Virus record (IMG/VR): IMGVR_UViG_3300032287_001552
Span: 1-29,437 of that record
Reading direction: 5' to 3' (one strand)
DNA from: a virus
DNA length: 29,437 bases
The notes under the pieces are model-generated. The model was not told where the DNA came from. It saw only the letters and a program-made list of their open reading frames with translations, and made no database searches. Shown here piece after piece: positions 4,071-29,437 of the stretch. Position numbers and translations under genes: made by a program. The first letter of the stretch is position 1. The number at the start of each line of letters is the position of its first letter.

Positions 4071-4238
4071 ATGGCATCATTCAAAGTAATCAGCGACAAC
4101 TGCACACTTGGTAATCAAGGAAGCATTGTCACAGAAGCAGAACTTGAAGATGTAAACTTGCAAGCGTTGCTTGAAGGTGGACATCTTGAACCTGTTTCTT
4201 CAAAGCCACAGAAAAACACAAACACGGAAGGTGAATGA
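4071..4238 (+). CDS. Small conserved phage protein, unknown function
   Basis: This 55-residue protein (MASFKVISDNCTLGNQGSIV, then a stretch like DLNLxALLEGGHLEP) resembles short proteins found just before the tail-tube gene in actinophages, often with VTEAEL and ALLEGGHL-like motifs. No enzymatic motif is seen. The ATG at 4071 is preferred over an upstream in-frame ATG inside the previous gene. It sits 7 bases after that gene's stop. The end overlaps the first possible start of the next gene (4235). Confidence 0.65.
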   Translation: MASFKVISDNCTLGNQGSIVTEAELEDVNLQALLEGGHLEPVSSKPQKNTNTEGE

Positions 4239-4240
4239 AC

Positions 4241-4648
4241 ATGGCTGTATTAGCACTTACAGATGCCAGCATCACAATCAATAGCGTTGCGTTGAGCAGC
4301 AAGGCAAACAGCGTCACAGTCAACTATGAGATTGATTCAGTAGAAGCAACAGCGTTTGGTTCTGGTGGTCATGTGTTCATTGGTGGCTTGCAGAACAACA
4401 GCATTGAGATTGCTTTGATGCAGGACTATGCAGCATCGCAAACAGAAGCAACCATCTATCCGTTGGTAGGAACCACTACCACTGTTGTTATCAAACCAAC
4501 ATCTGCTTCTGTTGGCGCAACAAATCCTTCATACACAATCACAGGAACTTTCTTGGCTTCTCACACACCTGTTGCTGGTGGTGTTGGTGAATTGGCTATG
4601 ACCACATTGAGTTTCACTGGTGGAACCATTGCTAAGGCTGTTGCATAG
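4241..4648 (+). CDS. Major tail (tube) protein, copy A
   Basis: This 135-residue, almost all-beta protein starts MAVLALTDASITINSVALS and contains an ATAFGSGGHVFIGGLQNN loop and a C-terminal GELAMTTLSFTGGTI. Size, fold pattern and place before the tail chaperone suit a tail-tube subunit. It is a close paralogue of the next gene. The ATG at 4241 matches the paralogue's start and has a ribosome-binding site GGAAGGTG 7 bases upstream. An ATG at 4235 (overlapping the previous stop) would add two residues. Confidence 0.75.
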   Translation: MAVLALTDASITINSVALSSKANSVTVNYEIDSVEATAFGSGGHVFIGGLQNNSIEIALMQDYAASQTEATIYPLVGTTTTVVIKPTSASVGATNPSYTITGTFLASHTPVAGGVGELAMTTLSFTGGTIAKAVA

Positions 4649-4650
4649 TC

Positions 4651-5082
4651 ATGGCTGTTCTCGCACTTACAGATGCAGTAATCACCATCAACGCTATTGC
4701 TGTGACAAGCAAGGCAAATAGCGTCACTTTGAACTATGAAGTTGATTCAATTGAAGTGACAGCATTTGGTGATACAGGACACAAGTTTGCTGGTGGCTTG
4801 CAGAACAACTCACTTGAAGTTGCTTTGATGCAAGACTTTGCCACAACTATTCCTGCTGGTTCACCTTCAACAAGCGTGGAAGCGTTGATTTATCCGTTGG
4901 TAGGTACAACAACCACAGTGACTGTCAAACCAACATCTGCAATCACATCAACAACAAACCCTATCTACACGCTGACAGGTACATTCCTTGCCAGCCACAC
5001 ACCTGTGGCAGGTGGCGTTGGTGAATTAGTGATGACCACATTGAGTTTCACTGGTGGAACACTTACCAAAGCAACTTCATAA
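4651..5082 (+). CDS. Major tail (tube) protein, copy B (tandem paralogue)
   Basis: This 143-residue protein is collinear with copy A: both start MAVLALTDA, share NSVT, NYE-DS, ALMQD-A and IYPLVGTTTTV, and end with the same VAGGVGEL-MTTLSFTGGT block. Copy B carries a 7-8 residue insertion near residue 65 (TIPAGSPSTSVEA). It starts two bases after copy A stops and lacks a clear ribosome-binding site, so coupled translation is likely. One copy may form the tube and the other may decorate it or form the tail tip. Which is which cannot be decided here. Confidence 0.75.
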   Translation: MAVLALTDAVITINAIAVTSKANSVTLNYEVDSIEVTAFGDTGHKFAGGLQNNSLEVALMQDFATTIPAGSPSTSVEALIYPLVGTTTTVTVKPTSAITSTTNPIYTLTGTFLASHTPVAGGVGELVMTTLSFTGGTLTKATS

Positions 5083-6216: not shown

Positions 6217-8796
6217 ATGGCTGTTGTAGTACCCATCATCAGTACCTTTGATGCAAAGGGAATCACCAAAGCCATCGCTGATTTCAAGAAACTAGACAAC
6301 GCTGGCGACAAGAGCGCATCAGTATTGCTATCAACCAACAAAGCAGTCAACACATTAGGAAAGAACTTTGCAAAGTTTGGTGGCATTGCTGCTGGTGTTG
6401 CTGGTGTTGTTGGTGGGTCACTTGTCAAGGCTGCATATGAATCACAGAAGGTGATGAAGCAGACTGAAGCAATTGTTGCTGCCACTGGTGGTGCAGCAGG
6501 CATGACAGCAAAGCAGGTTGCAAACTTTGCTGAATCATTGTCTGTGAAAACAGGTATTGATGATGAAGCAATCCAATCAAGTTTGAACCTGTTGCTGACT
6601 TTCAAGCAAGTACGCAATGAAGTTGGCAAAGGCAACGACATTTTCAATAGGGCTTCAATGGCTGCATTGGATTTGGGCAATGTCTTTGGTTCTACTGATG
6701 CTGCTGCAAAGATGCTAGGCAAGGCACTGTCAAACCCTGTCAAGGGAATCAACGCACTTCAGCGTGCAGGTGTGAACTTCTCTGACCAGCAGAAGGAACA
6801 AATCAAGACGCTTGTTGCCACAGGCAAAACCCTTGAAGCGCAGAAGATGATTCTGAAAGAAGTTGAATCACAGGTTGGTGGCACTGCTGTTGCTGGTGCT
6901 ACTGGCTTTGACCGTATGCGTGTGGCACTAGGTAACGCTGCTGAAGATTTGGGTACTGTTCTCATTCCTTATGTGGAACGCTTCGCAAACTTTGTGATTG
7001 ACAAAGTTGTTCCTGTGATTGAACAGTTCTCAACCATTCTTGGTAATCGTGGTCTAGGTGGCGCATTCAATTACTTAGTTGGGTCAATTGTGCGTGGTGT
7101 CTGGAACATGGGCAACATGGGCAAAACCATCACAGTAATCATTGGTTTGTTTGGTGCGTTGAAGGTTGCTGTCATTACCTACACAGCAGTTCAAACAGCG
7201 TTGACTATTGCAGCGCAGGTGACAACAGGTGCGCTCAAAGCACAGATTGTTGCGCTGAACGCAACAAAAGTTGCAATGCTTGCTGCTGGTGGTGTGACAG
7301 CCTTGCTCACCATCGCAGCAAGTTTGTATGCGATTTATGCAGGCAACAAATCAAAAGCAACATCTGCTACACAAAACTTCACTGATGCACTTTATGAAGA
7401 AGGAGATGCACAGAAGGAAGCCATCAAGCAACTGCTGCTATCAAGCAGAAATCTCAGCAACCTTGCCTTCATGCTGAATCTAAGTGGGCAAGGTGTTGGT
7501 GCTTTTGAAGAATACCTGACAAAGGGAACAGGCTCTTTGAAAGTGTTGAAAGAGCGTATTGACGCAGCAGTGAAGGCTGGCAGGGGTTTCACATATTGGA
7601 ATGAAAGTGGACAAGGTTTCACAGTTTCTGCTGGTGATGCAAAGAAATACAAAAAATCTCTTGATGAACTGACCAAATCACAACAGCAATACATTGCCAA
7701 TCAAAAACTATTCAAGGGTCTTGGCTTGAATATTGACACCACCGATACTGACAAAGCAGGCAAAATAATCTTGACTGCTGCTGAAAAGTTCAAAAAGTTT
7801 GGCGATGCTGCACGCACTGTTGTTTCTGACCAGAAGAACCTGCGTGATGCGTTCAAGAACACAGTGACTGCGCAGAAGTCTTTGCAGACAGCCACAGACA
7901 ATGTTGCTGCTGCACAAGCCAAACTGAACAGGATTGCGCAGGGCTATGGGGCTGGTAGCACTGAAGCACAGACAGCGCAAGAAGGATTGAACAGGGCGAA
8001 CCGTGACGCTACGCAAGCAGGCTATGACCTGACAAAAGCCAACTACGCAGTGTCTGATGCTGAAAAAGCGTTAGAGCAGGCACGCAGACGGAACAACCCT
8101 AGAGAGATTGCAGAAGCAGAAATTGCTTTGGCTGAAGCACGCTTTGCACAGGAAGATGCACAGAAGGCTGTTGCTGATGCAACCACTGCTGTGAACACTG
8201 CACAAACAAATCTGAATGAAACAATCAATGGTGCTGCTACAACTAGCGATACATACAAGAACGCATTGATTGAATTGCAAGAAGCGCAAGATGCACAGGT
8301 TGAAGCCATTGACAAAGTGCGTGATGCCAAAGAGCGTGAACTAGAAGTGACACGCAATCTGGCAAAGGCTGAAATCTTGTTGCGCAAGGCAAAGGGTGGT
8401 TTGACCAAATCGCAGATAGCAGCAGCCAACAAACTGTTGAAGCAGTTGAATACACCTGTGACAGTTACTGTGCCTTCACCCACTGCTGGTGTTGGTTCTA
8501 CTGGCTCTACTGTGTCTATGCCTTCTGCAAGTATGTCAGGCTTTGACTGGTCTGGTATCAGCGTTGGTGGTCTTGCCACGCTTGCTGAAGGTGGCATTGC
8601 TATGAAACCCACATTTGCGCTCATCGCTGAAGGTGGTGAACCTGAAGCAGTGATTCCATTGTCAAAGATGGGTGCGATGGGTGGAGATACCATCATCAAT
8701 GTGACTGTGACCAGCGCAGACCCAAACGCAGTTGTTGATGCGTTGCGCCGATACCAACGCCAGAATGGTGCGTTGCCACTAAGGGTTCAGGGATAA
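6217..8796 (+). CDS. Tape measure protein
   Basis: At 859 residues this is the longest gene. It sets tail length and is thought to be ejected during infection. The N-terminal quarter shows tape-measure-like sequence (VAAYESQKVMKQTEAIVAAT-type helices, KLGKALSNPVKGINALQRAG). Residues about 300-375 hold two or three hydrophobic segments (VIIGLFGALKVAVITYTAV; VAMLAAGGVTALLTIAASL). Residues about 530-730 are Ala/Gln/Glu-rich coiled coil with repeating ALxEAxxAxxxA patterns. The C-terminus has the common GGIAMKPTFALIAEGGEPEA-VIPLSK segment. At about 1.5 angstrom per residue it implies a tail near 130 nm. Confidence 0.92.
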   Translation: MAVVVPIISTFDAKGITKAIADFKKLDNAGDKSASVLLSTNKAVNTLGKNFAKFGGIAAGVAGVVGGSLVKAAYESQKVMKQTEAIVAATGGAAGMTAKQVANFAESLSVKTGIDDEAIQSSLNLLLTFKQVRNEVGKGNDIFNRASMAALDLGNVFGSTDAAAKMLGKALSNPVKGINALQRAGVNFSDQQKEQIKTLVATGKTLEAQKMILKEVESQVGGTAVAGATGFDRMRVALGNAAEDLGTVLIPYVERFANFVIDKVVPVIEQFSTILGNRGLGGAFNYLVGSIVRGVWNMGNMGKTITVIIGLFGALKVAVITYTAVQTALTIAAQVTTGALKAQIVALNATKVAMLAAGGVTALLTIAASLYAIYAGNKSKATSATQNFTDALYEEGDAQKEAIKQLLLSSRNLSNLAFMLNLSGQGVGAFEEYLTKGTGSLKVLKERIDAAVKAGRGFTYWNESGQGFTVSAGDAKKYKKSLDELTKSQQQYIANQKLFKGLGLNIDTTDTDKAGKIILTAAEKFKKFGDAARTVVSDQKNLRDAFKNTVTAQKSLQTATDNVAAAQAKLNRIAQGYGAGSTEAQTAQEGLNRANRDATQAGYDLTKANYAVSDAEKALEQARRRNNPREIAEAEIALAEARFAQEDAQKAVADATTAVNTAQTNLNETINGAATTSDTYKNALIELQEAQDAQVEAIDKVRDAKERELEVTRNLAKAEILLRKAKGGLTKSQIAAANKLLKQLNTPVTVTVPSPTAGVGSTGSTVSMPSASMSGFDWSGISVGGLATLAEGGIAMKPTFALIAEGGEPEAVIPLSKMGAMGGDTIINVTVTSADPNAVVDALRRYQRQNGALPLRVQG

Positions 8797-10463
8797 TGCC
8801 ACAGCAATACACAGTTGAATACCAACTTGAACGCAACAACTTGTTGTTCAATCCATCATTTGAAAGCAACACCTATGATGGGTCACTGGTTGGTTCAACT
8901 GCAAGTGTGATTGCTTCTGGTGCGTACTCAGGCACATACTGTCTGCAAGTTATCGCAACAACTAACAGCACATCTAATGAGTATGCGACACCAACAAATC
9001 AGGCACGCATTGTTGCAGGCAACACATACACAGCATCAGCGTATGTGTTCATCACTGCTGGTGTTTCACGCAATATGCGTCTAGGTATTAGAACCTATGA
9101 TTCAACTGGAACGCAACGCAACAACACACTAGGTGCTATCACCAGCATCACTACTGGTGGTGGGTGGCAACGCATATCTGCTTCTGTCACTGCTGGAACA
9201 AATGACTACTACGCATCTGTCTATGTTCTCTATCAAAACAGCAATGGCGCAATCAGCAATGCTGTGTTGATTGATGGAATGATGCTTGAACAATCAGCAT
9301 CTGTTGGTTCATACTTTGATGGCTCAACAACCAACGCATATTGGCTAGGTGTGGCAAATGGTTCACCTTCAGCGTTACCAACTACAACATGGCTTGCGCT
9401 AACTAATGTGCAGCAGATTTCAGGGTTTGTTGGCAGGCAAGGAATCAACGACACTTTTGAGCCATCACGCATGACTATCAGTGCTAGATACCCAACAGGG
9501 TTCAGCGCGCAGAACACAGCGTTGAAAGTGAACACACAAATCAGGGTCAAGCGCACAGGTTCTACTTATACAATGTGGACAGGGCGAATCAGAAATGTCA
9601 GCGTACAGTGGGCTATCCCATACAACAGCAGCACAGGAACAGGTGTCGCAGACAATGTTGAAATTGAATGTGAAGGTGCGTTGGCGCAGTGGGGAAGGTT
9701 GCAGGGTAATAGTTTGGCTGTTGCTGCAAGTGACTTGCTGACACAGTTGAGCAATGTTCTTGCTGGAACCAACTTGAACTATGGAACGACATACACCGCT
9801 TCAACATCACCACAGTTGTCTGCATCTGAAGTTGGTGATTCTCTAGCAGTTTGGTTGAACACTGCGTGCGCCACTGTTGGTGCAACAATCAAAGATGGTT
9901 CTGACAACAACATTGTTGGTGTCAATGGGCGTGACATTGTTGGTACTTTGCCTGTGCAGTTCAGCGACACAACAAACAACAGCACTAATCAGGTGTATGA
10001 CGGAATTGTGTTTGATTCTGCATCTTCTGATTTCTTCACAGAAATTGAATTGAACACTTATTCTTATGGTGATGTTGTTGTCACATATGGAACTGCCCCA
10101 TATCGCACGCTGCGCCAGAACACATACAGCCCAAGTGCGTCACAGGCAACAGACCTAGCCAACTATCTTCTTGGTATCTATGGTGATAATGGTTTTGGTA
10201 TTTCTGAAATCACTTGTAAGTCAGATGCACAAAATAGTTGGTCTTTGGATTTGGGCTATGGCTGGTGGGACATTATTGGCTACACAACTTTCATAACTTT
10301 TCGTGGCACAACTTTTCGCTGCACCATTCTTGGTTCAGCGTTCACTGCTACACCATCAGAATCACGATTCACCTACTATGTTGCTGATATTGGTTTGACA
10401 CCATTTCTCATTCTTGATGACACATCTGCTGGAATACTTGACCAAAACAAACTTGGCTGGTGA
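8796..10463 (+). CDS. Tail-tip protein with N-terminal carbohydrate-binding-like domain
   Basis: This 555-residue protein follows the tape measure, so it is probably a distal tail or hub/minor tail protein. Residues about 10-180 look like a jelly-roll module of the CBM4/9 type: NLLFNPSFES at the start, AGNTYTASAYVFITAG in the middle, GGGWQRISASVTAG, and VLIDGMMLEQ with SVGSYFDGS at the end. The remainder contains beta-rich sequence including MWTGRIRNVSVQW, VEIECEGALAQWGRL and a GYGWWDIIGYTTFITFRGTTF-like C-terminal part. The CBM-like module suggests binding to host surface sugars. The ATG overlaps the tape measure stop (TAATG). Confidence 0.75.
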   Translation: MPQQYTVEYQLERNNLLFNPSFESNTYDGSLVGSTASVIASGAYSGTYCLQVIATTNSTSNEYATPTNQARIVAGNTYTASAYVFITAGVSRNMRLGIRTYDSTGTQRNNTLGAITSITTGGGWQRISASVTAGTNDYYASVYVLYQNSNGAISNAVLIDGMMLEQSASVGSYFDGSTTNAYWLGVANGSPSALPTTTWLALTNVQQISGFVGRQGINDTFEPSRMTISARYPTGFSAQNTALKVNTQIRVKRTGSTYTMWTGRIRNVSVQWAIPYNSSTGTGVADNVEIECEGALAQWGRLQGNSLAVAASDLLTQLSNVLAGTNLNYGTTYTASTSPQLSASEVGDSLAVWLNTACATVGATIKDGSDNNIVGVNGRDIVGTLPVQFSDTTNNSTNQVYDGIVFDSASSDFFTEIELNTYSYGDVVVTYGTAPYRTLRQNTYSPSASQATDLANYLLGIYGDNGFGISEITCKSDAQNSWSLDLGYGWWDIIGYTTFITFRGTTFRCTILGSAFTATPSESRFTYYVADIGLTPFLILDDTSAGILDQNKLGW

Positions 10464-11167: not shown

Positions 11168-11354
11168 ACAGATAGTTGTTGCGTTGATAGGCGCATCAGT
11201 CACGCTGATAGTGACGCTGATTGAAGTGACACGCAGACAGAACAACAAAGACCACGCAAGCAACGCAAACAAACTAGACCGCATTGCAGAAAAGATAGAT
11301 ACCGTTGACAGCAGATTGGGCAAACACTTTGAATGGCACGCACACAAAGACTGA
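11160..11354 (+). CDS. Small membrane protein with one TM helix and coiled coil
   Basis: This 64-residue protein has a hydrophobic N-terminal helix (IVVALIGASVTLIVTLI, residues 4-20) followed by a charged coiled-coil-like tail (NKLDRIAEKIDTVDSRLGKH). This matches the architecture of DUF2746-like and other small membrane proteins of actinophage lysis regions. It could be an accessory holin or spanin-like factor. It overlaps its upstream neighbour by 8 bases and its downstream neighbour by 22. Confidence 0.6.
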   Translation: MNEQIVVALIGASVTLIVTLIEVTRRQNNKDHASNANKLDRIAEKIDTVDSRLGKHFEWHAHKD

Positions 11355-12598
11355 TACGCCTATCAACCAGCGTGGCATTTCTCTTGTTATTGCTGGCGAG
11401 TGGGCAAACGAACGCAAACGCTGGTGGCATCGCAGAAAACGGTATCAACGCAAACTACTTCAGCGTTGAACAGATACCACCTGCCAAGAATGAATCACTG
11501 CACACCTTGTGTGGCAGCGAGATAGAAAACAACATCAACAGAAACTTTGAAGGTGAACCATTCACTGACTGTCCTAATGACCTGTTCATGGTTCATTACA
11601 CAGGCTTCATCACTTTGCCTGTTCACAACACCATTCAGTTTTGGTTGGCTGCCGATGATGGTGGAACAATGAAGATTGGAACATATGAATGGGGTGACTG
11701 GTCTGATAAGGGTTGCACTGCGATAGAGACAGAACCAATGACCCTGCAATCAGAACAACCACTGATGCTTGATGGCTGGTTCTATGAGAATGGTGGTGGC
11801 ACTTGTTTCATGCTGGCGTGGAGAATCAACAATGGTGATTGGCAGATTGTGCCTGATTCAGCGTTCACTGTTTCTGCGACAGAACCCACGACAACAACCA
11901 CACAGCCAGAACCCACAACAACACAAGCCCCGACAACCACAACTGAAGCATCAACAACTACTACTTCTCTGGTTCCTGAAACACAGACCACACATCATCA
12001 GGTTCAGACAACACTTCCTGCGACAACCACAACTGCTGCGCTTCCTGCCACGCTTCCTTCATCTGTTCCTGTCTCAACTGTTCCTGCACCTTCACCAGAC
12101 GATGCGCCAACCACAACACTGCTGATGCCAACAACATCACTGCCACTTCAAGAACCCACATCTGAACCCCAATCTGAAACTGATACACAAATCATAGAAC
12201 TGATAGACACCCTTGATACGGGAACGGCATCAGAAGTGATTGAAGCAGTAGCCAACATTCTTGACGCAGGCATTGATGCGGAACAGGCAGCAGAACTAGC
12301 CACCAATCCTGAACTGCTTGAAACGATAGAGCCAGAACAAGCACAAGAAATCTTTGAAGCGTTAGACATTGAAACACTTGACGCTGCTGAAATAACAGCA
12401 CTAGTGGAAGCAGTGCAAGACGCACCCACTGAAGTGCGTGAAGCCTTTGAAGAAGCAATCAATGTCTTTGATGGTGCTGTTGATTCCTATGTTCCGATTG
12501 GTTCAACTGTTCCCATCAGCACACGCAGATTGGTGATTGCTGCTGGTGCATTGCTGTCTGCTGTACCAACTTCAACATCATCAGCAAGACGCAAGTGA
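11333..12598 (+). CDS. Secreted PA14-like protein with Thr-rich linker and C-terminal anchor
   Basis: This 421-residue protein has a clear signal peptide (MARTQRLIRLSTSVAFLLLL to about residue 30). Residues about 35-182 resemble a PA14 domain, a beta barrel that binds sugars: note FMVHYTGFITLP, FWLAADDGGTMKIG, LMLDGWFYENGGG and FMLAWR, with Cys residues at 60, 80, 128 and 158. Residues about 183-280 are a Thr/Pro-rich stalk with TTTTT runs. Residues about 284-380 form an acidic helical domain. The end carries a short hydrophobic segment (LVIAAGALLSAV) followed by SARRK. It lies between the fibre and holin genes. Possible roles are adhesion of the virion or infected cell, blocking of superinfection, or lysis. 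None is established. Confidence 0.7.
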   Translation: MARTQRLIRLSTSVAFLLLLLASGQTNANAGGIAENGINANYFSVEQIPPAKNESLHTLCGSEIENNINRNFEGEPFTDCPNDLFMVHYTGFITLPVHNTIQFWLAADDGGTMKIGTYEWGDWSDKGCTAIETEPMTLQSEQPLMLDGWFYENGGGTCFMLAWRINNGDWQIVPDSAFTVSATEPTTTTTQPEPTTTQAPTTTTEASTTTTSLVPETQTTHHQVQTTLPATTTTAALPATLPSSVPVSTVPAPSPDDAPTTTLLMPTTSLPLQEPTSEPQSETDTQIIELIDTLDTGTASEVIEAVANILDAGIDAEQAAELATNPELLETIEPEQAQEIFEALDIETLDAAEITALVEAVQDAPTEVREAFEEAINVFDGAVDSYVPIGSTVPISTRRLVIAAGALLSAVPTSTSSARRK

Positions 12599-12625: not shown

Positions 12626-12808
12626 ATGGGACACGGTATGAACAGATTGTTGGGTGAGTTCGCAGGTCTTGTATGGACATTGGCAGGTACTGCGCTTGTG
12701 CTTATCACGCTTTCTGGTCAGACACGCACAATCGGATTGTGGATTAGTGGCGCAGCCTTAGTTCTCAATCTCGCAGCGATAGCACTACAAAAGGAAGAAG
12801 AAGAATGA
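12626..12808 (+). CDS. Small two-helix membrane protein, possible holin partner
   Basis: The 60-residue product has two hydrophobic segments (LVWTLAGTALVLITL, residues about 15-29, and LWISGAALVLNLAAIAL, about 38-54) and an acidic tail KEEEE. This two-TM hairpin with charged end is holin- or antiholin-like, and it directly precedes the likely holin, overlapping it by four bases (ATGA). The start at 12626 has AGGCGAG five bases upstream. ATG 12641 is an alternative. Confidence 0.6.
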   Translation: MGHGMNRLLGEFAGLVWTLAGTALVLITLSGQTRTIGLWISGAALVLNLAAIALQKEEEE

Positions 12809-13059
12809 ACACAGCAGTAAGCATCATTCAACGCATCATCAGCACATTCATTGTGAATGCAATGGCAATCATTGGTGGCGCATCAATCATTGGTGGTATT
12901 CCTGTCGCCAAGTCAGCAATGCTGGCTGGTATCAGTGCAGTGGTCACAGTCATTGAGCGTCTAGCGCGCGCATCTGTTGATGGCAACTTGACCACAGCAG
13001 AAATCAACGCAGCGTTCACTGGTGTTGTGCCAGAAGAAAAGAACGCAGACAACCAATGA
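12805..13059 (+). CDS. Holin (r1t-like)
   Basis: This 84-residue protein has the look of the phage r1t holin group: an amphipathic start (VSIIQRIISTFIVNAMAIIG), a glycine-rich hydrophobic segment (GGASIIGGIPVAKSAMLAGI) and another hydrophobic helix, then a short acidic tail with LTTAEINAAF. It would form lesions in the cell membrane to release the endolysin. It overlaps both neighbours by four bases, making a tight lysis cassette. Confidence 0.78.
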   Translation: MNTAVSIIQRIISTFIVNAMAIIGGASIIGGIPVAKSAMLAGISAVVTVIERLARASVDGNLTTAEINAAFTGVVPEEKNADNQ

Positions 13060-13643
13060 AGTACCCGTATCAGAAACTTGTATTGCCTTCCTGCTTGAAA
13101 GGTGAAATCAACGGAAGATTGAACAAGGCTCTGCTGGTGCGTGTGAACACAGGTGGCAAGATGGTCAAGCCAGCAGCAGTTGCGTTCAATGCGTTATATG
13201 AAGAAGCAAAGAAGGCTGGACTCACACTGCGCAACATTGGTGACTATCGTTCCTTTGATGGTCAGTTGGCAATGTTCCTTGACCGTTATGAAATCGCAAA
13301 ACCAAATGACCCACGCTTGAAGAAGCCACGCACAGTGACACGCAAGTATGAAGGCAAGGTGTGGATTCTGAAGAAAGGCAAAGCACCATCTGCTGCGCCA
13401 GACCCAACAGGGAAGTCAGGCAGCAATCATGGTTGGGGTCTTGCTATTGATTTGGCTGTTGAAGGCAAGGGTGGACAGATTGTTGCGCTGGCTTCTGCAA
13501 AGCGCGCGTTGAAGTTCATGTGTGAGACAGCACCTAAGTATGGGTTTTTCTTGCAGGGTGACAATCCAAAGTCACCAGAGTTTGAAGCATGGCATTGGCA
13601 GTATTGCATTGGTGATGCCACACCACCTGCGTTGCAGGGTTAG
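13056..13643 (+). CDS. Endolysin, M15/VanY-type peptidase
   Basis: At 195 residues this fits a single-domain D-Ala-D-Ala carboxypeptidase-type or L-Ala-D-Glu endopeptidase lysin that cuts peptidoglycan peptides. The zinc and catalytic motifs are present: DYRS (63-66), SNHGWGLAIDL (123-133; His125 and Asp132) and EFEAWHW (175-181; His180), the SxHxxGxAxD and ExxHW signatures. There is no signal peptide, so export should depend on the holin. It is the last gene of the late operon and is followed by a strong terminator. Confidence 0.9.
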   Translation: MKYPYQKLVLPSCLKGEINGRLNKALLVRVNTGGKMVKPAAVAFNALYEEAKKAGLTLRNIGDYRSFDGQLAMFLDRYEIAKPNDPRLKKPRTVTRKYEGKVWILKKGKAPSAAPDPTGKSGSNHGWGLAIDLAVEGKGGQIVALASAKRALKFMCETAPKYGFFLQGDNPKSPEFEAWHWQYCIGDATPPALQG

Positions 13644-13700
13644 CAGGTCATGGGTGGGGCTGGTTGCTGTCCATCAGCCCTGCCCACCTAACGCAAAAAG

Positions 13701-13740
13701 CCCCACAGCAGGCAGGAAACCAAACAAGCCTGCTGTGGGG
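13701..13740. terminator. Bidirectional terminator between convergent genes
   Basis: CCCCACAGCAGGC (13701-13713) pairs perfectly with 13728-13740 across a 14-base loop. On the minus strand the stem is followed by CTTTTTGCG, an intrinsic terminator for the leftward cassette. For rightward transcripts the stem is present but the T-run is weak (ACATCTTTA). A second, imperfect GC-rich inverted repeat lies at about 13650-13688. Confidence 0.82.
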
Positions 13741-13746
13741 ACATCT

Positions 13747-14004
13747 TTACAGTGACCACCATTCCCTGCCCCACATGGCAGATGGGTGGCAACCAAGCCT
13801 GATAGCGATTCTGTCAGCGCGTGCATAGTGAATCGTTGCTTCACCTTCTGATGCGCGCCACTTCATTAGTGTGCCGACATTGATACCAAGTAGGTCTGCT
13901 GCATCGCGCACAGGTAAGTCATTGACCACACGCAGAATTGGTGTTGTTGATAGGCGTGCTGTCCGTTCACGCTTCCACACATCTTCAACACCAACTTCTG
14001 CCAT
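13747..14004 (-). CDS. Small helix-turn-helix protein
   Basis: The 85-residue protein has a predicted helix-turn-helix in VRDAADLLGINVGTLMKWRA (about 32-51), like MerR/excisionase-type sequences. The C-terminal motif YARADRIAIRLGCHPSAMWG is shared with 24695-25042. It is the last gene of the leftward cassette, 3 bases after the CI/Cro-like gene, and is probably a transcriptional regulator. No integrase is present, so an excisionase role is unlikely. Confidence 0.65.
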   Translation of the reverse strand: MAEVGVEDVWKRERTARLSTTPILRVVNDLPVRDAADLLGINVGTLMKWRASEGEATIHYARADRIAIRLGCHPSAMWGREWWSL

Positions 14005-14007
14005 GTA

Positions 14008-14265
14008 TCAACTTTCTGTGTGCTGCCAGTACGCAACAGCCATGATGACTGAACCTTTGTCTGCACCTGTTGCTTGTTCAATCGCAACAAGATGATTCAC
14101 TGCTGGCAATGTCTTGCCTTGTTCCCATGAACTAACCAATGGCTGTGTGACATTGATGCGTTTTGACAGTTCACGCTGGCTGATGCCTGCTGTCATTCGT
14201 GCAGCAAGCAACACTGTTGCGCATTGCTTCAACTGTTCTGCTGGTACTTCTTGTTTCTTTGGCAT
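14008..14265 (-). CDS. Cro/CI-type HTH regulator
   Basis: The 85-residue protein is nearly all an HTH_3 (XRE) domain: LLAARMTAGISQRELSKRIN, then VTQPLVSSWEQGKTLPAVNHL. Recognition helix QPLVSSWEQG is typical. It lacks a dimerisation or protease-sensor domain, so it resembles Cro more than a full CI. The ATG (complement of 14263-14265) is preceded on the minus strand by AGGACAGGACAG. An upstream extension of the open frame overlaps the lysozyme-like gene and is not needed. The likely target sites are unknown. TTCTAGG sites are candidates. Confidence 0.78.
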   Translation of the reverse strand: MPKKQEVPAEQLKQCATVLLAARMTAGISQRELSKRINVTQPLVSSWEQGKTLPAVNHLVAIEQATGADKGSVIMAVAYWQHTES

Positions 14266-14290
14266 GGTTTGCTGTCCTGTCCTAGAAGGG

Positions 14291-14767
14291 TTACTTGTTA
14301 GTGATACTAGCGTTGCTTGTAGCACGCCAGTGAGAACTGCCACCATTGTTGTAGAGATACGCAGCAACTGCGATGTTGCAAGAAGGCTTCTGAAGTATCA
14401 GAACATCTGATGACTTGCAGATTGCTTTGGTTACAGAACGCCAAGTTGAATTGACCTGCAACAATCCAATGTCGTATGACTTCACTGCGCTGCACTTTCT
14501 GTATGTGCGCGCGTGTGACAGTTCACAATTCCTGTGTGATTTGTTCTTGTGATAGTTCCAGCCGATTGCGCGTGGCTGGCAGCGAGATTCACGGTACATA
14601 ATCGGCGCGAACACGCGCACTGGCAGACCTGCCTTGCGCAACGCATCGTGCCATTCTGGACATGGCAAGCCTTTGATGGGTGCTGCGTCTGCGTCACGCA
14701 GCGAGAAGGTGAGAAGTAGAAGATTGATGATGAATGCGACAATGATGAATCTGGTTGTGCGTGTCAT
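14291..14767 (-). CDS. Secreted lysozyme-like / lytic transglycosylase protein
   Basis: This 158-residue protein has a signal peptide (MTRTTRFIIVAFIINLLLLT, likely cleavage near ADA-AP at 29). A lysozyme-fold catalytic domain follows: PIMYRESRCQPRAIG (Glu60 the likely acid), then SYDIGLLQVNSTW (99-109), a pair of motifs typical of SLT/lysozyme-like enzymes. Four or more Cys suggest disulphides outside the cell. It would cut peptidoglycan glycan strands. It is first in a leftward operon with two regulators, not in the lysis cassette, so it may remodel the wall or act in entry or superinfection. The ribosome-binding site on the minus strand is AGGAAAGGAAC. Confidence 0.75.
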   Translation of the reverse strand: MTRTTRFIIVAFIINLLLLTFSLRDADAAPIKGLPCPEWHDALRKAGLPVRVFAPIMYRESRCQPRAIGWNYHKNKSHRNCELSHARTYRKCSAVKSYDIGLLQVNSTWRSVTKAICKSSDVLILQKPSCNIAVAAYLYNNGGSSHWRATSNASITNK

Positions 14768-15075
14768 GGGTGTTCCTTTCCTGCCACGCTCAATGGGTGT
14801 TTCAGGGTTGCTGGCTGTCTTTGTACCCATCTGGCGTTTGCGTGTCTCACAGGGGCGCACAGCGCGTCTGGCTGTGGGTCTGGCTGCGCTGGCAGATTGT
14901 CTATGTCCAGCCTTGGCTGGTTGGTAGGGGTCAGTTGGTGTCCACCCTAGACAGACCCTGTGCCATTTCTGTGTCACCTGCCCTGAATCCCTTGTGGGGT
15001 GGGGCTTTGGCAGGGTCAAAAGAAATCTGCCCACAATGCGTGTGATGGGGTATCAGGTGTGCTTATAATGGGTGC
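14768..15075. other. Divergent intergenic region between leftward cassette and early genes
   Basis: No gene is supported in these 308 bases. They hold the rightward promoter module at 15021-15075, a tight inverted repeat CCAGCC/GGCTGG at 14907-14920, and a direct repeat of GTCTGGCTG with a 12-base period near 14867-14888. The leftward promoter is not obvious. TACAAA on the minus strand near 14820-14826 is a weak -10 candidate. The sequence is GC-richer than its neighbours. Confidence 0.6.
15021..15075 (+). promoter_or_regulatory. Early leaderless promoter, module copy 1
   Basis: A perfect TATAAT lies at 15064-15069, six bases before the ATG at 15076, so transcription should start at or beside the start codon. 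No TTGACA-like -35 is visible. The upstream block AGAAATCTGCCC...AATGCG recurs at the same distance before the gene at 22470. Confidence 0.75.
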
Positions 15076-15492
15076 ATGGAAACGAACAACACCCAATTCA
15101 ACACACCACTGCAAAACCGTCAAGACCGTGTATTCAGCGAATATGAAGAACTGCTTGCACAAGTCGCGCAAGGTGGCGTGACAGTAGAGACATCAGCACT
15201 GTTTGACCTTGAAGGTAATTGGACACCAGCACGATTGGTTGAAAACAAGTACGGCTTCTCATGGTTAGTGCTTGATGAGAACGGAAAGTCAAAAGGAATC
15301 TTTGTTCCCTACGCATCAAAGAAGCGTGAGACACAAGCAAAGCATGGATTTGTTGAAGGGAAAGTGCGTGTGCCAGCAAAAGCAGAAATGTGGGGTGGCA
15401 AGTTGATGCAGGCAGGTCTTGTGCCAGCAGATGAAGTTGGCACAGTCAAGCCAATTGAAATCATCACCACTGACCGATTCGCCAACAACTAA
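15076..15492 (+). CDS. Unrecognised early protein (METN start)
   Basis: This 138-residue soluble protein is not recognised. It has a helical N-terminal half (DRVFSEYEELLAQVAQG), a central strand-rich segment (WTPARLVENKYGFSWLVLDE) and a basic stretch (YASKKRETQAKHG). The start METN is shared with the genes at 22470 and 23186, all three under leaderless-type promoters. It is the first rightward early gene after the regulatory region, so it may be expressed first. Confidence 0.65.
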   Translation: METNNTQFNTPLQNRQDRVFSEYEELLAQVAQGGVTVETSALFDLEGNWTPARLVENKYGFSWLVLDENGKSKGIFVPYASKKRETQAKHGFVEGKVRVPAKAEMWGGKLMQAGLVPADEVGTVKPIEIITTDRFANN

Positions 15493-15522: not shown

Positions 15523-15708
15523 ATGAACACAACATCAATCACCAGCCAACTTCAAAGCCTTCTTGCGACAGCAACTGAAGATTTCAATACAAAGCGCAAC
15601 GCATATGCACAATGCCAGCAGGGAAGTTTCAAGCCATACATGGAAGCAGCAGCACTTTTGGAACAAGTAGTCGCGCTGTGCGAATCAAACGGTATTGAAG
15701 TCAAGTAA
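15523..15708 (+). CDS. Small unrecognised early protein
   Basis: The 61-residue protein (MNTTSITSQLQSLLATATED...) is helical with two helices separated by CQQGSFKP. It has no recognised motif. It follows the leaderless gene with a conserved ribosome-binding leader and is followed by an intrinsic terminator, so the two form a short early transcript. Confidence 0.6.
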   Translation: MNTTSITSQLQSLLATATEDFNTKRNAYAQCQQGSFKPYMEAAALLEQVVALCESNGIEVK

Positions 15709-15725
15709 TCAATCACAACGCATCT

Positions 15726-15751
15726 GCCCCACCCTTAGTGGTGGGGCTTTT
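15726..15751 (+). terminator. Intrinsic terminator of first early transcript
   Basis: GCCCCACC (15726-15733), loop of 6, GGTGGGGC (15740-15747), then TTTTGTGTTT. This is a textbook rightward terminator. Its loop contains the stop codon of the leftward initiator-like gene, so the two features overlap. Confidence 0.85.
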
Positions 15752-16517
15752 GTGTTTCTGTGCGACATTCACACCAGCGTGATTTGTGTTGCTGTTCATC
15801 AGGGTCAAAGTCCACAATGAAACCAGCACCATCACACACAACACAATCAGCATCACCAATCACATCTGGCATGATGCGCTTCACCTGCGCAGGCTGATTC
15901 ACAATCAACTTGTTCAACTGCACATCAAGCATTGTTGCGCTAGGCACACTCAACTGCATCAACGCTGTTGTGACCTGCTGTTCAGTCCAGCCACCCTTCA
16001 ACGCGCCATTGATGATTGCCAGCAGCGAATGCCACGCACCTTTGCCTGTTGGGGTCTTTCCACCTGTGCGCTGTTTGTATGCGTTCCACCATTCATCAGC
16101 GATTGACTGCGCAGCAGTAGGTTCTTGACTCTGTATCAAACTGACTATGGTTCCTATGTCGTTTTTGTCGCCACCTGTGGGTGCGTTTTTGTCGCTAGGT
16201 AGGGACATTTTTGACGCTACCTGTGGAACTGTGATGACTGTGTATTGATTGCTTGTCATGTCACCATTTGCGCTGATGCGTTGTTTCTTGATAACAGCAC
16301 CAATCTCAATCAGTTCTGCCAATGCTCTGTCAATGCTCTTGACTGTGCAGTTGCATTTGGCAGCCAGCGTTGCTCTTGATGGGTGACACGCACCTGTTTC
16401 TTTATCTGCGTACCGTTGCAAGGTTCCGTACAAACGCACTGCTGTGGCTGTTATGTCTGAATACAAGACCCATTCTGGAATGATGCAGAAGTAGTTATCT
16501 GCGTTGATGTTGTTCAT
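15735..16517 (-). CDS. Replication initiator-like winged-helix protein
   Basis: In this 260-residue protein, residues about 10-95 form an HTH_36-like winged helix (VLYSDITATAVRLYGTLQRY, then CHPSRATLAAKCNCTVKSIDRALAELIEIGAV), as in phage replisome organisers and RepA/DnaD-type initiators. The middle (IADEWWNAYKQRTGGKTPTG, WHSLLAIINGAL) is helical and DnaD-like. The C-terminus has a possible zinc cluster, CVVCDGAGF and CEC. It is transcribed away from the repeat-rich gap 16518-16702, the likely origin. No helicase or primase is seen, so it would recruit host machinery. Confidence 0.65.
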   Translation of the reverse strand: MNNINADNYFCIIPEWVLYSDITATAVRLYGTLQRYADKETGACHPSRATLAAKCNCTVKSIDRALAELIEIGAVIKKQRISANGDMTSNQYTVITVPQVASKMSLPSDKNAPTGGDKNDIGTIVSLIQSQEPTAAQSIADEWWNAYKQRTGGKTPTGKGAWHSLLAIINGALKGGWTEQQVTTALMQLSVPSATMLDVQLNKLIVNQPAQVKRIMPDVIGDADCVVCDGAGFIVDFDPDEQQHKSRWCECRTETQKPHH

Positions 16518-18508: not shown

Positions 18509-18535
18509 TGTTGCATCTTCCCCGATAAATGGTGC

Positions 18536-22316: not shown

Positions 22317-22469
22317 ACCCTGCCAGAGCGCACAGGAAGCCCTGTGAGCGTTCTTGGGGGCTGGAAGGGGCTGAACCAGCCCACAGCCATTAGCAAGCCT
22401 TCTAGGGGCTAGAAAGAAATCTGCCCCAAATGCGTCAGATAGGTGATTAGTGGTGCTAATCTGACAGGT
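22317..22469. other. Intergenic region with hairpin and early promoter, module copy 2
   Basis: GGGCTGG and CCAGCCC near 22359-22382 form a 7-bp hairpin after the methyltransferase gene, and TTCTAGG lies at 22400-22406. The block 22415-22469 repeats the module at 15021-15075 without gaps, with TAATCT (22457-22462) seven bases before the ATG at 22470. No gene is seen. Confidence 0.7.
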
Positions 22470-24619: not shown

Positions 24620-24723
24620 CCAGATGCACACGCTGTGACCAACTGCTGTGGCAGTGTGTATGCCCCAACTACCCAACACCAAAGGAAACCAACAATGGCA
24701 AAACAAATCAAAGACATCACTGA
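24616..24723 (+). CDS. Small putative zinc-ribbon protein overlapping the next gene
   Basis: The 35-residue frame (MTRCTRCDQLLWQCVCPNYP...) has two CxxC/CxC pairs, enough for one zinc site. It starts by ATGA overlap with the upstream gene and ends 29 bases inside the next gene. It may be a real coupled gene or a leader-like ORF controlling the next one. The conserved ribosome-binding leader lies inside it. Confidence 0.5.
   Translation: MTRCTRCDQLLWQCVCPNYPTPKETNNGKTNQRHH
24680..24694 (+). promoter_or_regulatory. Conserved ribosome-binding leader, copy 5
   Basis: CAAAGGAAACCAACA directly before the ATG at 24695, inside the 24616 frame. Confidence 0.7.
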
Positions 24724-25042
24724 ACATGGAATCAGCATGTACCGCTACCGCCAATGCAGATGCGACATCTGCAAGCAAGCAGCATCAGAACAACGCAAAC
24801 ACTTCAGACCAAAGAGCGACAACAAACGCATCAGGCTTGATGGCACAGTGTTTGTTGCAAGACTTATCAAAGACAATCGGCATGGTGCTATCAACACCAA
24901 CCTGATTTCAAAGTGGTCACGCTTTGGAATAGACATCTACAACGCTGATGAATGGTGTATGCGTTTGGGTTATCACCCCATAGAGATTTGGGGTCAGGAC
25001 TTCTACCAAGACTGCTGTGAAGATGAACTGGTTGATGCGTGA
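24695..25042 (+). CDS. Cys-containing protein with HTH-like C-terminus
   Basis: The 115-residue product starts MAKQIKDITEHGISMYRYRQ and continues with CRCDICKQ, an HG...CRCDxC motif common in actinobacterial and actinophage zinc-finger-like proteins. The C-terminal YNADEWCMRLGYHPIEIWGQ matches the leftward HTH protein at 13747-14004. It is likely DNA-binding. The start is set by the conserved leader. The frame is open further upstream. It ends at the next start (GTGATG). Confidence 0.65.
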   Translation: MAKQIKDITEHGISMYRYRQCRCDICKQAASEQRKHFRPKSDNKRIRLDGTVFVARLIKDNRHGAINTNLISKWSRFGIDIYNADEWCMRLGYHPIEIWGQDFYQDCCEDELVDA

Positions 25043-29062: not shown

Positions 29063-29319
29063 AATCACAAGCCTATTCAGTGTCCACAACAAGAGTGAAG
29101 ATTGTTGCATCAGACAACATCAACAGAACTGTCTATCTGCACGCTGTTGGTGCTGGCGTTGTCTATATAGGTGGTGCTGATGTCACTTCCGCAAATGGAA
29201 TGTTGACAGAAAAGAATGCTGTGCCATTAGAAATGTTCCTTCCAGCAAATGAAGAACTGTATGCAATCACTGCCACAGGTACTGAAGAAGTGCGTGTGCT
29301 TACACCAAGTCAGGATTGA
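29059..29319 (+). CDS. Small beta-rich protein between portal and protease
   Basis: This 86-residue protein has YSVSTTRVKIVASDNINRTV, VYLHAVGAGVVYIGGADVT, then PLEMFLPANEELYAITATG and a final beta strand. This beta-rich pattern occurs in small proteins beside protease genes of actinophages. It may be a capsid accessory or decoration protein, but function is not known. It overlaps the portal stop by four bases. Its stop is followed by the protease ATG two bases later. Confidence 0.68.
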   Translation: MKSQAYSVSTTRVKIVASDNINRTVYLHAVGAGVVYIGGADVTSANGMLTEKNAVPLEMFLPANEELYAITATGTEEVRVLTPSQD

Positions 29320-29437
29320 GAATGCCTTACTACATCAGTGACCAAATGAATGACTGCGCAGGGTGGGCAACCATCAAGGCTGATACACCTGACAGCACCC
29401 CTGAAACCATTGGTTGTCATCAAACAAAGCAAGACGC
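29315..29437. repeat. Terminal direct repeat, right copy (circular join)
   Basis: Identical to 1-123. It contains the end of the 29059 gene and the start of the protease, so it shows which sequence is upstream of position 1 in the circular molecule. Confidence 0.95.
29322..29437 (+). CDS. Prohead protease, 5' fragment (second copy of gene start)
   Basis: The ATG at 29322 corresponds to position 8. The frame encodes MPYYISDQMNDC onward and runs off the window. It is the same gene as 8-1381 in the circular genome, not a separate gene. Confidence 0.9.
   Translation, partial: MPYYISDQMNDCAGWATIKADTPDSTPETIGCHQTKQD

Follow-up and report, generated by a model that had tools for sequence, protein, structure and literature searches.

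The leftward three-gene cassette of a small phage genome (IMG/VR record IMGVR_UViG_3300032287_001552; all 29,437 nt of it are referred to as the window) is, judged from gene order in its relatives, the distal part of a block that runs from a replication-initiator-like gene (REP) through a lysozyme-like gene (LYZ) to two small regulator genes (XRE and HTH). The best reading of this arrangement, which we hold tentatively, is that LYZ is a wall-remodeling exported muramidase, expressed along with the replication block and controlled in a Cro/CI-like manner. This suggests that the host wall is altered during infection, beyond the final burst.

The window begins and ends with the same perfect direct repeat of 123 nt (positions 1-123 and 29315-29437), which makes a complete genome probable even though its ends are listed as linear in IMG/VR. 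A siphophage-like gene set (terminase, portal, prohead protease, capsid, and tape measure) is accompanied by RecE, ERF, and REP genes. Among named phages, Pontimonas phage phiPsal1 has the closest terminase (39% identity), a LYZ match in the phages collection was obtained for Actinomycetia phage DSL-LC01 alone, and LYZ relatives elsewhere are fused to Rpf domains (PF06737), which among 14 control genomes were matched in Corynebacterium only. Together, these three lines point to an actinobacterial host; the phage is small, and the host probably belongs to the aquatic actinobacteria. The window holds further features of its own. Positions 11333-12598 (+) encode a protein of 421 amino acids whose start resembles a signal peptide and which includes a long stretch rich in Thr and Pro, without a Pfam match and with relatives 44 to 98% identical. 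The tail region includes a protein with a CBM_4_9 carbohydrate-binding domain (8796-10463, +), and two adjacent similar genes (4235-4648 and 4651-5082) form a tandem duplication with repeat stretches 75 to 79% identical at the DNA level.

Three minus-strand ORFs, with intergenic gaps of 25 and 3 nt, exactly fill positions 13747-14767 (Table 1). The first-pass annotation had described a signal-peptide lysozyme-like gene followed by an XRE gene and a second HTH gene, and the Pfam matches of all three agree with this description. It had also assigned the cassette a terminator of its own, which holds up well: stem arms at 13701-13713 and 13728-13740 are followed by TTTTT on the minus strand, and the stretch has a folding energy of -35.1 kcal/mol (z -4.56), a stability equalled by none of 200 shuffles. 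On by-eye comparison, L003-L006 (loci are numbered L) keep the terminator, and L008, L009, and L017 have one whose stem sequences are altered; L013 shows no evident counterpart 3' of HTH. Spacing and terminator suggest that LYZ, XRE, and HTH are cotranscribed. Against five relatives (15 pairwise tests), dN/dS was 0.10 to 0.24 for LYZ, 0.10 to 0.47 for XRE, and 0.05 to 0.24 for HTH; by this measure, purifying selection acts on the three genes alike.

Table 1. Features of the cassette and its surroundings in the window
Feature	Position	Strand	Description
Holin-like gene	12805..13059	+	Holin only second-best PHROG (E 5e-5); best (E 8e-24) labelled nuclease
VanY-type endolysin	13056..13643	+	Last gene of late operon; Pfam match; beside cassette
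Intrinsic terminator of cassette	13695..13740	-	13-bp stem, T5 tail
HTH	13747..14004	-	85 aa; HTH_23 PF13384 match
XRE	14008..14265	-	85 aa, Cro/CI type; HTH_3 PF01381 match
LYZ	14291..14767	-	158 aa, signal-peptide-like start, lysozyme fold; SLT PF01464 match
LYZ 5' leader	14768..14951	-	Conserved, about 180 nt, possibly structured
Promoter/operator-like element	15051..15067	+	Recurrent; 8 nt ahead of a start codon; further copies at 18524 and 22445
Small gene	15076..15492	+	phrog_5855; between REP and LYZ; own promoter-like element
61-aa ORF	15523..15708	+	Second ORF of rightward insert
Terminator-like hairpin	15726..15747	+	3' of rightward insert
REP	15735..16517	-	Replication-initiator-like; HTH_36, phrog_270; heads block in relatives

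The linkage to the initiator emerges from a comparison of 76 viral loci, near-duplicates among them, recovered by searching with a LYZ alignment. Sixteen of these loci have XRE no more than 1 kb from LYZ, and 15 have HTH at such a distance. REP is found no farther than 2.5 kb from LYZ at 16 loci, all but one of which also have XRE nearby. LYZ, XRE, and HTH follow one another on the same strand at 15 loci; one more (L050) has LYZ-XRE, the available stretch being without HTH. This recurrence, together with the low dN/dS, marks the cassette as something other than a chance arrangement. The complete order REP-LYZ-XRE-HTH on one strand recurs at 14 loci besides the window (L004-L006, L008, L009, L017, L031-L034, L035, L038, L013, and L084), and partial blocks are seen in L003, where the contig begins at the LYZ leader, in L007, which stops within LYZ, and in L050 (REP-LYZ-XRE). 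In the window, two rightward ORFs and a terminator-like hairpin separate REP from LYZ, which are thus probably on separate transcripts there; in L006, the two are 219 nt apart, with no ORF of at least 80 amino acids between them.

The first-pass annotation also stressed that the cassette is transcribed against the late operon. This is so in the window genome but fails as a general rule. In most of the window group the block is inverted relative to VanY, RecE, and ERF, whereas in five relatives (L013, L084, L050, L035, and L038) the preceding RecE and ERF genes share its strand, as do VanY-type genes wherever one was recognised. The 8.3-kb fragment L005 combines both arrangements, with RecE and ERF on the strand of the block and VanY opposed, showing that layouts vary. 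Since the block is found in both main layouts, opposition to the late operon is not essential, but initiator linkage is.

On the most likely reading, LYZ would be an exported muramidase that cuts wall glycan. Its score against SLT PF01464 is 23.1 bits (Pfam gathering cut-off, 21.3), which places it in that family. Read from the sequence, the N terminus has a basic start, a hydrophobic core, and ADA before residue 29, and is signal-peptide-like. E60, D99, and six cysteines are invariant across an alignment of 50 LYZ sequences; the RESxC motif, with the catalytic Glu, is present at all 76 loci, and the D-x-G-to-N-S motif at 75, the remaining locus being a truncated frame. D99 aligns with the lysozyme C Asp that precedes Q-x-N-S, presumably a catalytic residue, and LYZ thus has the second catalytic Asp of c-type lysozymes and EtgA-like muramidases. 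The AlphaFold model (pLDDT 87.4) has a lysozyme-like fold; in second-look alignments its VIA Z values rose to 10.4 against lysozymes and to 9.8 against Slt70, and a Foldseek search with it returned no match at E <= 0.001. When the LYZ profile was compared with the PDB, EtgA and lysozyme C scored best, weakly (E 0.002 to 0.006). LYZ thus shares the Glu and Asp of EtgA, c-type lysozymes, and SLT enzymes, with VIA Z about 10, but the phage family differs from them in its own GWNY and TYRKC motifs and in its six invariant cysteines.

On the sequences collected, the LYZ family is a phage family. One scan of a genome collection yielded no confirmed LYZ relative in bacterial genomes (29 stretches matched the pattern), and one such scan for HTH none either (32 stretches); both rest on short conserved peptides, so distant relatives may escape. 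In other lineages, LYZ is found in tail or lysis neighborhoods or near SSB and WhiB, and its role may differ there. At 12 of the 76 loci (L039, L042, L051-L054, L068, L070, L072, L081, L083, and L085) the LYZ frame also contains an Rpf motif, an endolysin-like stretch separating the two domains in some of these proteins, and none of the 12 has XRE or HTH nearby. PF06737 was confirmed in 7 of 10 scanned LYZ-family proteins (E 7e-12 to 4e-16), these 7 having been preselected as fused-looking, and 8 of 20 records gave one match each, in frames of fusion length. Five of seven scanned Rpf-fused relatives score below the SLT cut-off, and two further proteins (L088 and L073) have no SLT match. L042 and L070 were tried as NCBIfam RpfC and rejected, their 27.3 and 44.1 bits being far under the cut-off of 200. 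The window LYZ and the rest of its genome gave no PF06737 match; the Rpf connection of the window LYZ runs via family fusions only.

According to the excerpts available of the respective reports, Rpf domains occur in tape-measure proteins (PMC6392294), a wall-hydrolase motif of the TM4 tape measure (mt3, not the Rpf motif) helps the phage to infect stationary cells (PMC1796659), infection with WC1 is accompanied by a rise in four of the six rpf genes of the host (PMC10986025), and mycobacteria deficient in Rpf are infected less efficiently by two phages (PMC12908700, a conference poster). These reports make wall remodeling a relevant function to consider. Rpf (PF06737) and the Rpf and mt3 motifs of tape measures, as presented in the excerpt of PMC1796659, are muralytic and tied to non-growing actinobacteria, a likeness that LYZ shares through the 12 loci with a Rpf motif; the window LYZ differs from them in having no PF06737 domain and in being a free signal-peptide protein outside any tape measure.

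The leader upstream of LYZ is firmly conserved at the sequence level. It aligns over about 180 nt across 11 sequences, one of them partial, and its motif pattern matched 12 viral contigs, always preceding LYZ. Its identity to the window exceeds that of the four-fold sites of LYZ in eight of nine pairs (e.g., 0.68 versus 0.28 in L032), the exception being L005 (0.90 versus 0.91). A coding role was dropped because open frames upstream of LYZ differ among relatives. TAGGGT was likewise rejected as a -10 box for LYZ: it is not enriched (4 found, 2.9 expected) and sits in a predicted stem. The evidence for an RNA structure is suggestive. The predicted closing stem ends directly before GGAAAGG, a ribosome-binding-like motif, and 96.3% of cells pair in the predicted structure. 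Folding of the full-leader alignment gave z -6.4, beating 200 of 200 column shuffles (reverse complement, z -3.05); the 3' parts alone gave z -1.1 to -2.9, and the single window leader with its flank z -1.84. The covariation score exceeded those of all 500 shuffles, but related sequences can reach such a score without structure, and the structure scored was derived from the same alignment. Pairs changed on both sides numbered 4 of 30, which 25 of 500 shuffles reached, and the figure for further pair types was reached by 49 of 500.

The leader model also matches L012 (positions 1850-2006; E 1.6e-6 in 1.09 Mb), a distant 44-kb phage with a LYZ 56% identical; XRE is not matched there, and HTH is matched at just 42%, about 9.6 kb off. 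The leader match ends at the start of LYZ, and its 29.1 bits compare with 23.2 under a structure-free model, which speaks for sequence conservation more than for structure. With filters off, no significant leader match was obtained in L010, L011, L013, L040, or L085, the nearest being L010:9789-9896 (7.2 bits, E 0.33), about 100 nt before LYZ. An Rfam search with the leader returned nothing at gathering score (best E 0.25, on the opposite strand), and no description of cassette or leader was recognised in searches of the open-licence PMC literature. The leader is a candidate new RNA regulatory element before a wall-hydrolase gene.

Both regulators are small. XRE scores 42.2 bits against HTH_3 PF01381 (Pfam cut-off, 23) and has no C-terminal domain; HTH just reaches the cut-off of HTH_23 PF13384 (24.6 bits for both). 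At E 0.01, the HTH protein matched nothing in the phages collection, and its model found no match in Foldseek at E <= 0.001; among the weak Foldseek matches, many are Cro/CI-like and include P22 c2, N15 Cro, and SaPI2 Stl. Separately, a small protein encoded at 24635-25042 (+), without a Pfam match, has a C-terminal RLGxHPxxxWG in common with the cassette HTH by eye. A partly palindromic 17-bp element (GATAAATGGTGCTAATC and variants) is present at 15051, 18524, and 22445 (+), each time 7 to 8 nt ahead of a start codon. This position, directly ahead of small genes, suggests leaderless transcripts. Strong copies occur at similar places in several relatives, with high scores that are partly circular because the matrix was built from the scored sites; L013 and L033, which both have XRE and HTH, hold no strong copy (top scores 12.2 and 10.9). 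The palindrome pattern matched 14 times with up to three mismatches (4.7 expected; 14 reached by 0 of 100 shuffles), but it was picked after inspecting the copy at 22445, and of the 14 matches only those at 18524 and 22445 have two mismatches or fewer. That XRE or HTH binds the element is a guess.

What we infer from these patterns, as follows, concerns when LYZ is made, its export and activity, the targets of the regulators, the structure of the leader, and the physiological role. REP would start phage DNA replication, and LYZ would be made with the replication block rather than with the late lysis genes, its translation being set by the conserved leader. Exported by the host, LYZ would cut glycan strands from the outer side of the membrane and, like host Rpf enzymes, would loosen the wall or keep it growing while the phage replicates; the VanY endolysin may then find the wall already primed when lysis comes. 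As small Cro/CI-like repressors, XRE and HTH would tune the block and neighboring early promoters. The first-pass annotation had offered control of an infection state with wall remodeling as one of two possibilities, and of the two this is the one that fits better: the cassette follows the initiator in both main layouts, and the LYZ family is fused to Rpf in other phages.

Close behind stands a reading that is doubtful but serious, in which LYZ is a secreted second endolysin, exported in advance, restrained while the membrane is energised, and aiding VanY once the holin fires, with the regulators setting its timing only; both readings can be true. The VanY gene and a holin-like gene adjoin the cassette, and VanY lies within 2.5 kb of LYZ at 9 of the 76 loci, all in lineages lacking XRE (L044, L045, L056, L058-L061, L064, and L067). 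Kayvirus Tgl provides a precedent, to which LYZ can be likened: the excerpts of its description (PMC7150955) present a lytic transglycosylase with a signal peptide and a lysozyme-like fold, whose gene lies a few genes from lysK, apart from the main endolysin, and can be transcribed early from an early promoter, and Tgl-producing cells lyse when nisin mimics the holin. LYZ, for its part, has a signal-peptide-like start by eye and lies on the strand opposite to the late genes. Tgl, however, belongs to the lytic module near lysK, and the same excerpts (PMC7150955) make no mention of linked regulators, an initiator, or Rpf fusions. In the cassette group, by contrast, LYZ stays with REP and the regulators regardless of the strand of the lysis genes, and the Rpf fusions indicate growth-type wall hydrolases.

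A carrier state seems quite unlikely. XRE and HTH would then be repressor and anti-repressor of REP and the early genes, and the genome would persist unintegrated with LYZ expressed. In the lambda cro/cII-O region, small HTH regulators lie beside the initiator gene, and the regulators of the block resemble that neighborhood in adjoining REP; the block differs in having no integrase and in placing a lysozyme gene between initiator and regulators. The P22 c2, N15 Cro, and SaPI2 Stl matches of HTH and the recurrence of operator-like sites would also fit, and extrachromosomal prophages are known in mycobacteria, as an excerpt of PMC7157519 states. Against it stand the length of XRE, only 85 amino acids without a C-terminal domain, and the bacterial genomes, where LYZ and HTH relatives were not found with the patterns used. 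Partition genes are likewise scarce: ParA (PF13614) was matched in none of the 30 records that contain a LYZ, XRE, or HTH relative, of which the window is one, and ParB (PF02195) in one of nine, namely G013, to which L013 belongs and which gave a ParB_N match. Neither was found in the window or in six records of about 30 kb with the same layout (L004, L006, L008, L009, L032, and L034), which have no terminal repeat and may be incomplete. In addition, an excerpt of the phiPsal1 report describes that phage as lytic, without sign of integration (PMC6106888). phiPsal1 (MG835450) resembles the window in size, in its terminase, and in having a cI/Cro-like HTH gene that follows the holin and points leftward, without an annotated integrase; it differs in lacking an annotated lysozyme-like gene, in an M23 peptidase instead of VanY, and in a RepO encoded elsewhere.

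It is very unlikely that LYZ is a superinfection or wall-modification factor whose changes to the wall keep competing phages from attaching or injecting, the fact in its favor being that the signal-peptide enzyme occurs in phages of diverse gene context. The other possibility raised by the first-pass annotation, the remains of a lysogeny module, is scarcely tenable. Its observation that an integrase is absent was correct: the probably complete genome matched neither tyrosine (PF00589) nor serine (PF00239) integrases, and across the same 30 records the former was matched in none and the latter in one (L042, without XRE or HTH near LYZ). The six same-layout records gave no integrase match either, and the relatives with an integrase at the cassette site for which that annotation called did not appear among the cassette-bearing records searched. 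Since a complete-looking genome and six relatives of about 30 kb lack integrase, ParA, and ParB, and phiPsal1 is judged lytic, a lysogeny remnant is disfavored. Repressor-like genes, XRE among them, and a site between late and early genes would suit a module eroded after integrase loss, but purifying selection on all three genes, the missing integrase, and the identical block in another layout argue against it.

A broader proposal, unlikely but worth stating, is that lytic phages of slow-growing aquatic actinobacteria would use a replication-linked, Rpf-like exported lysozyme, under an undescribed conserved mRNA leader, to bring a dormant host wall into growth, or keep it growing, for infection. 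A signal-peptide enzyme that is fused to Rpf in other phages and linked to the initiator here makes it testable whether phages actively alter the wall or the growth state of hosts that are limited by nutrients.
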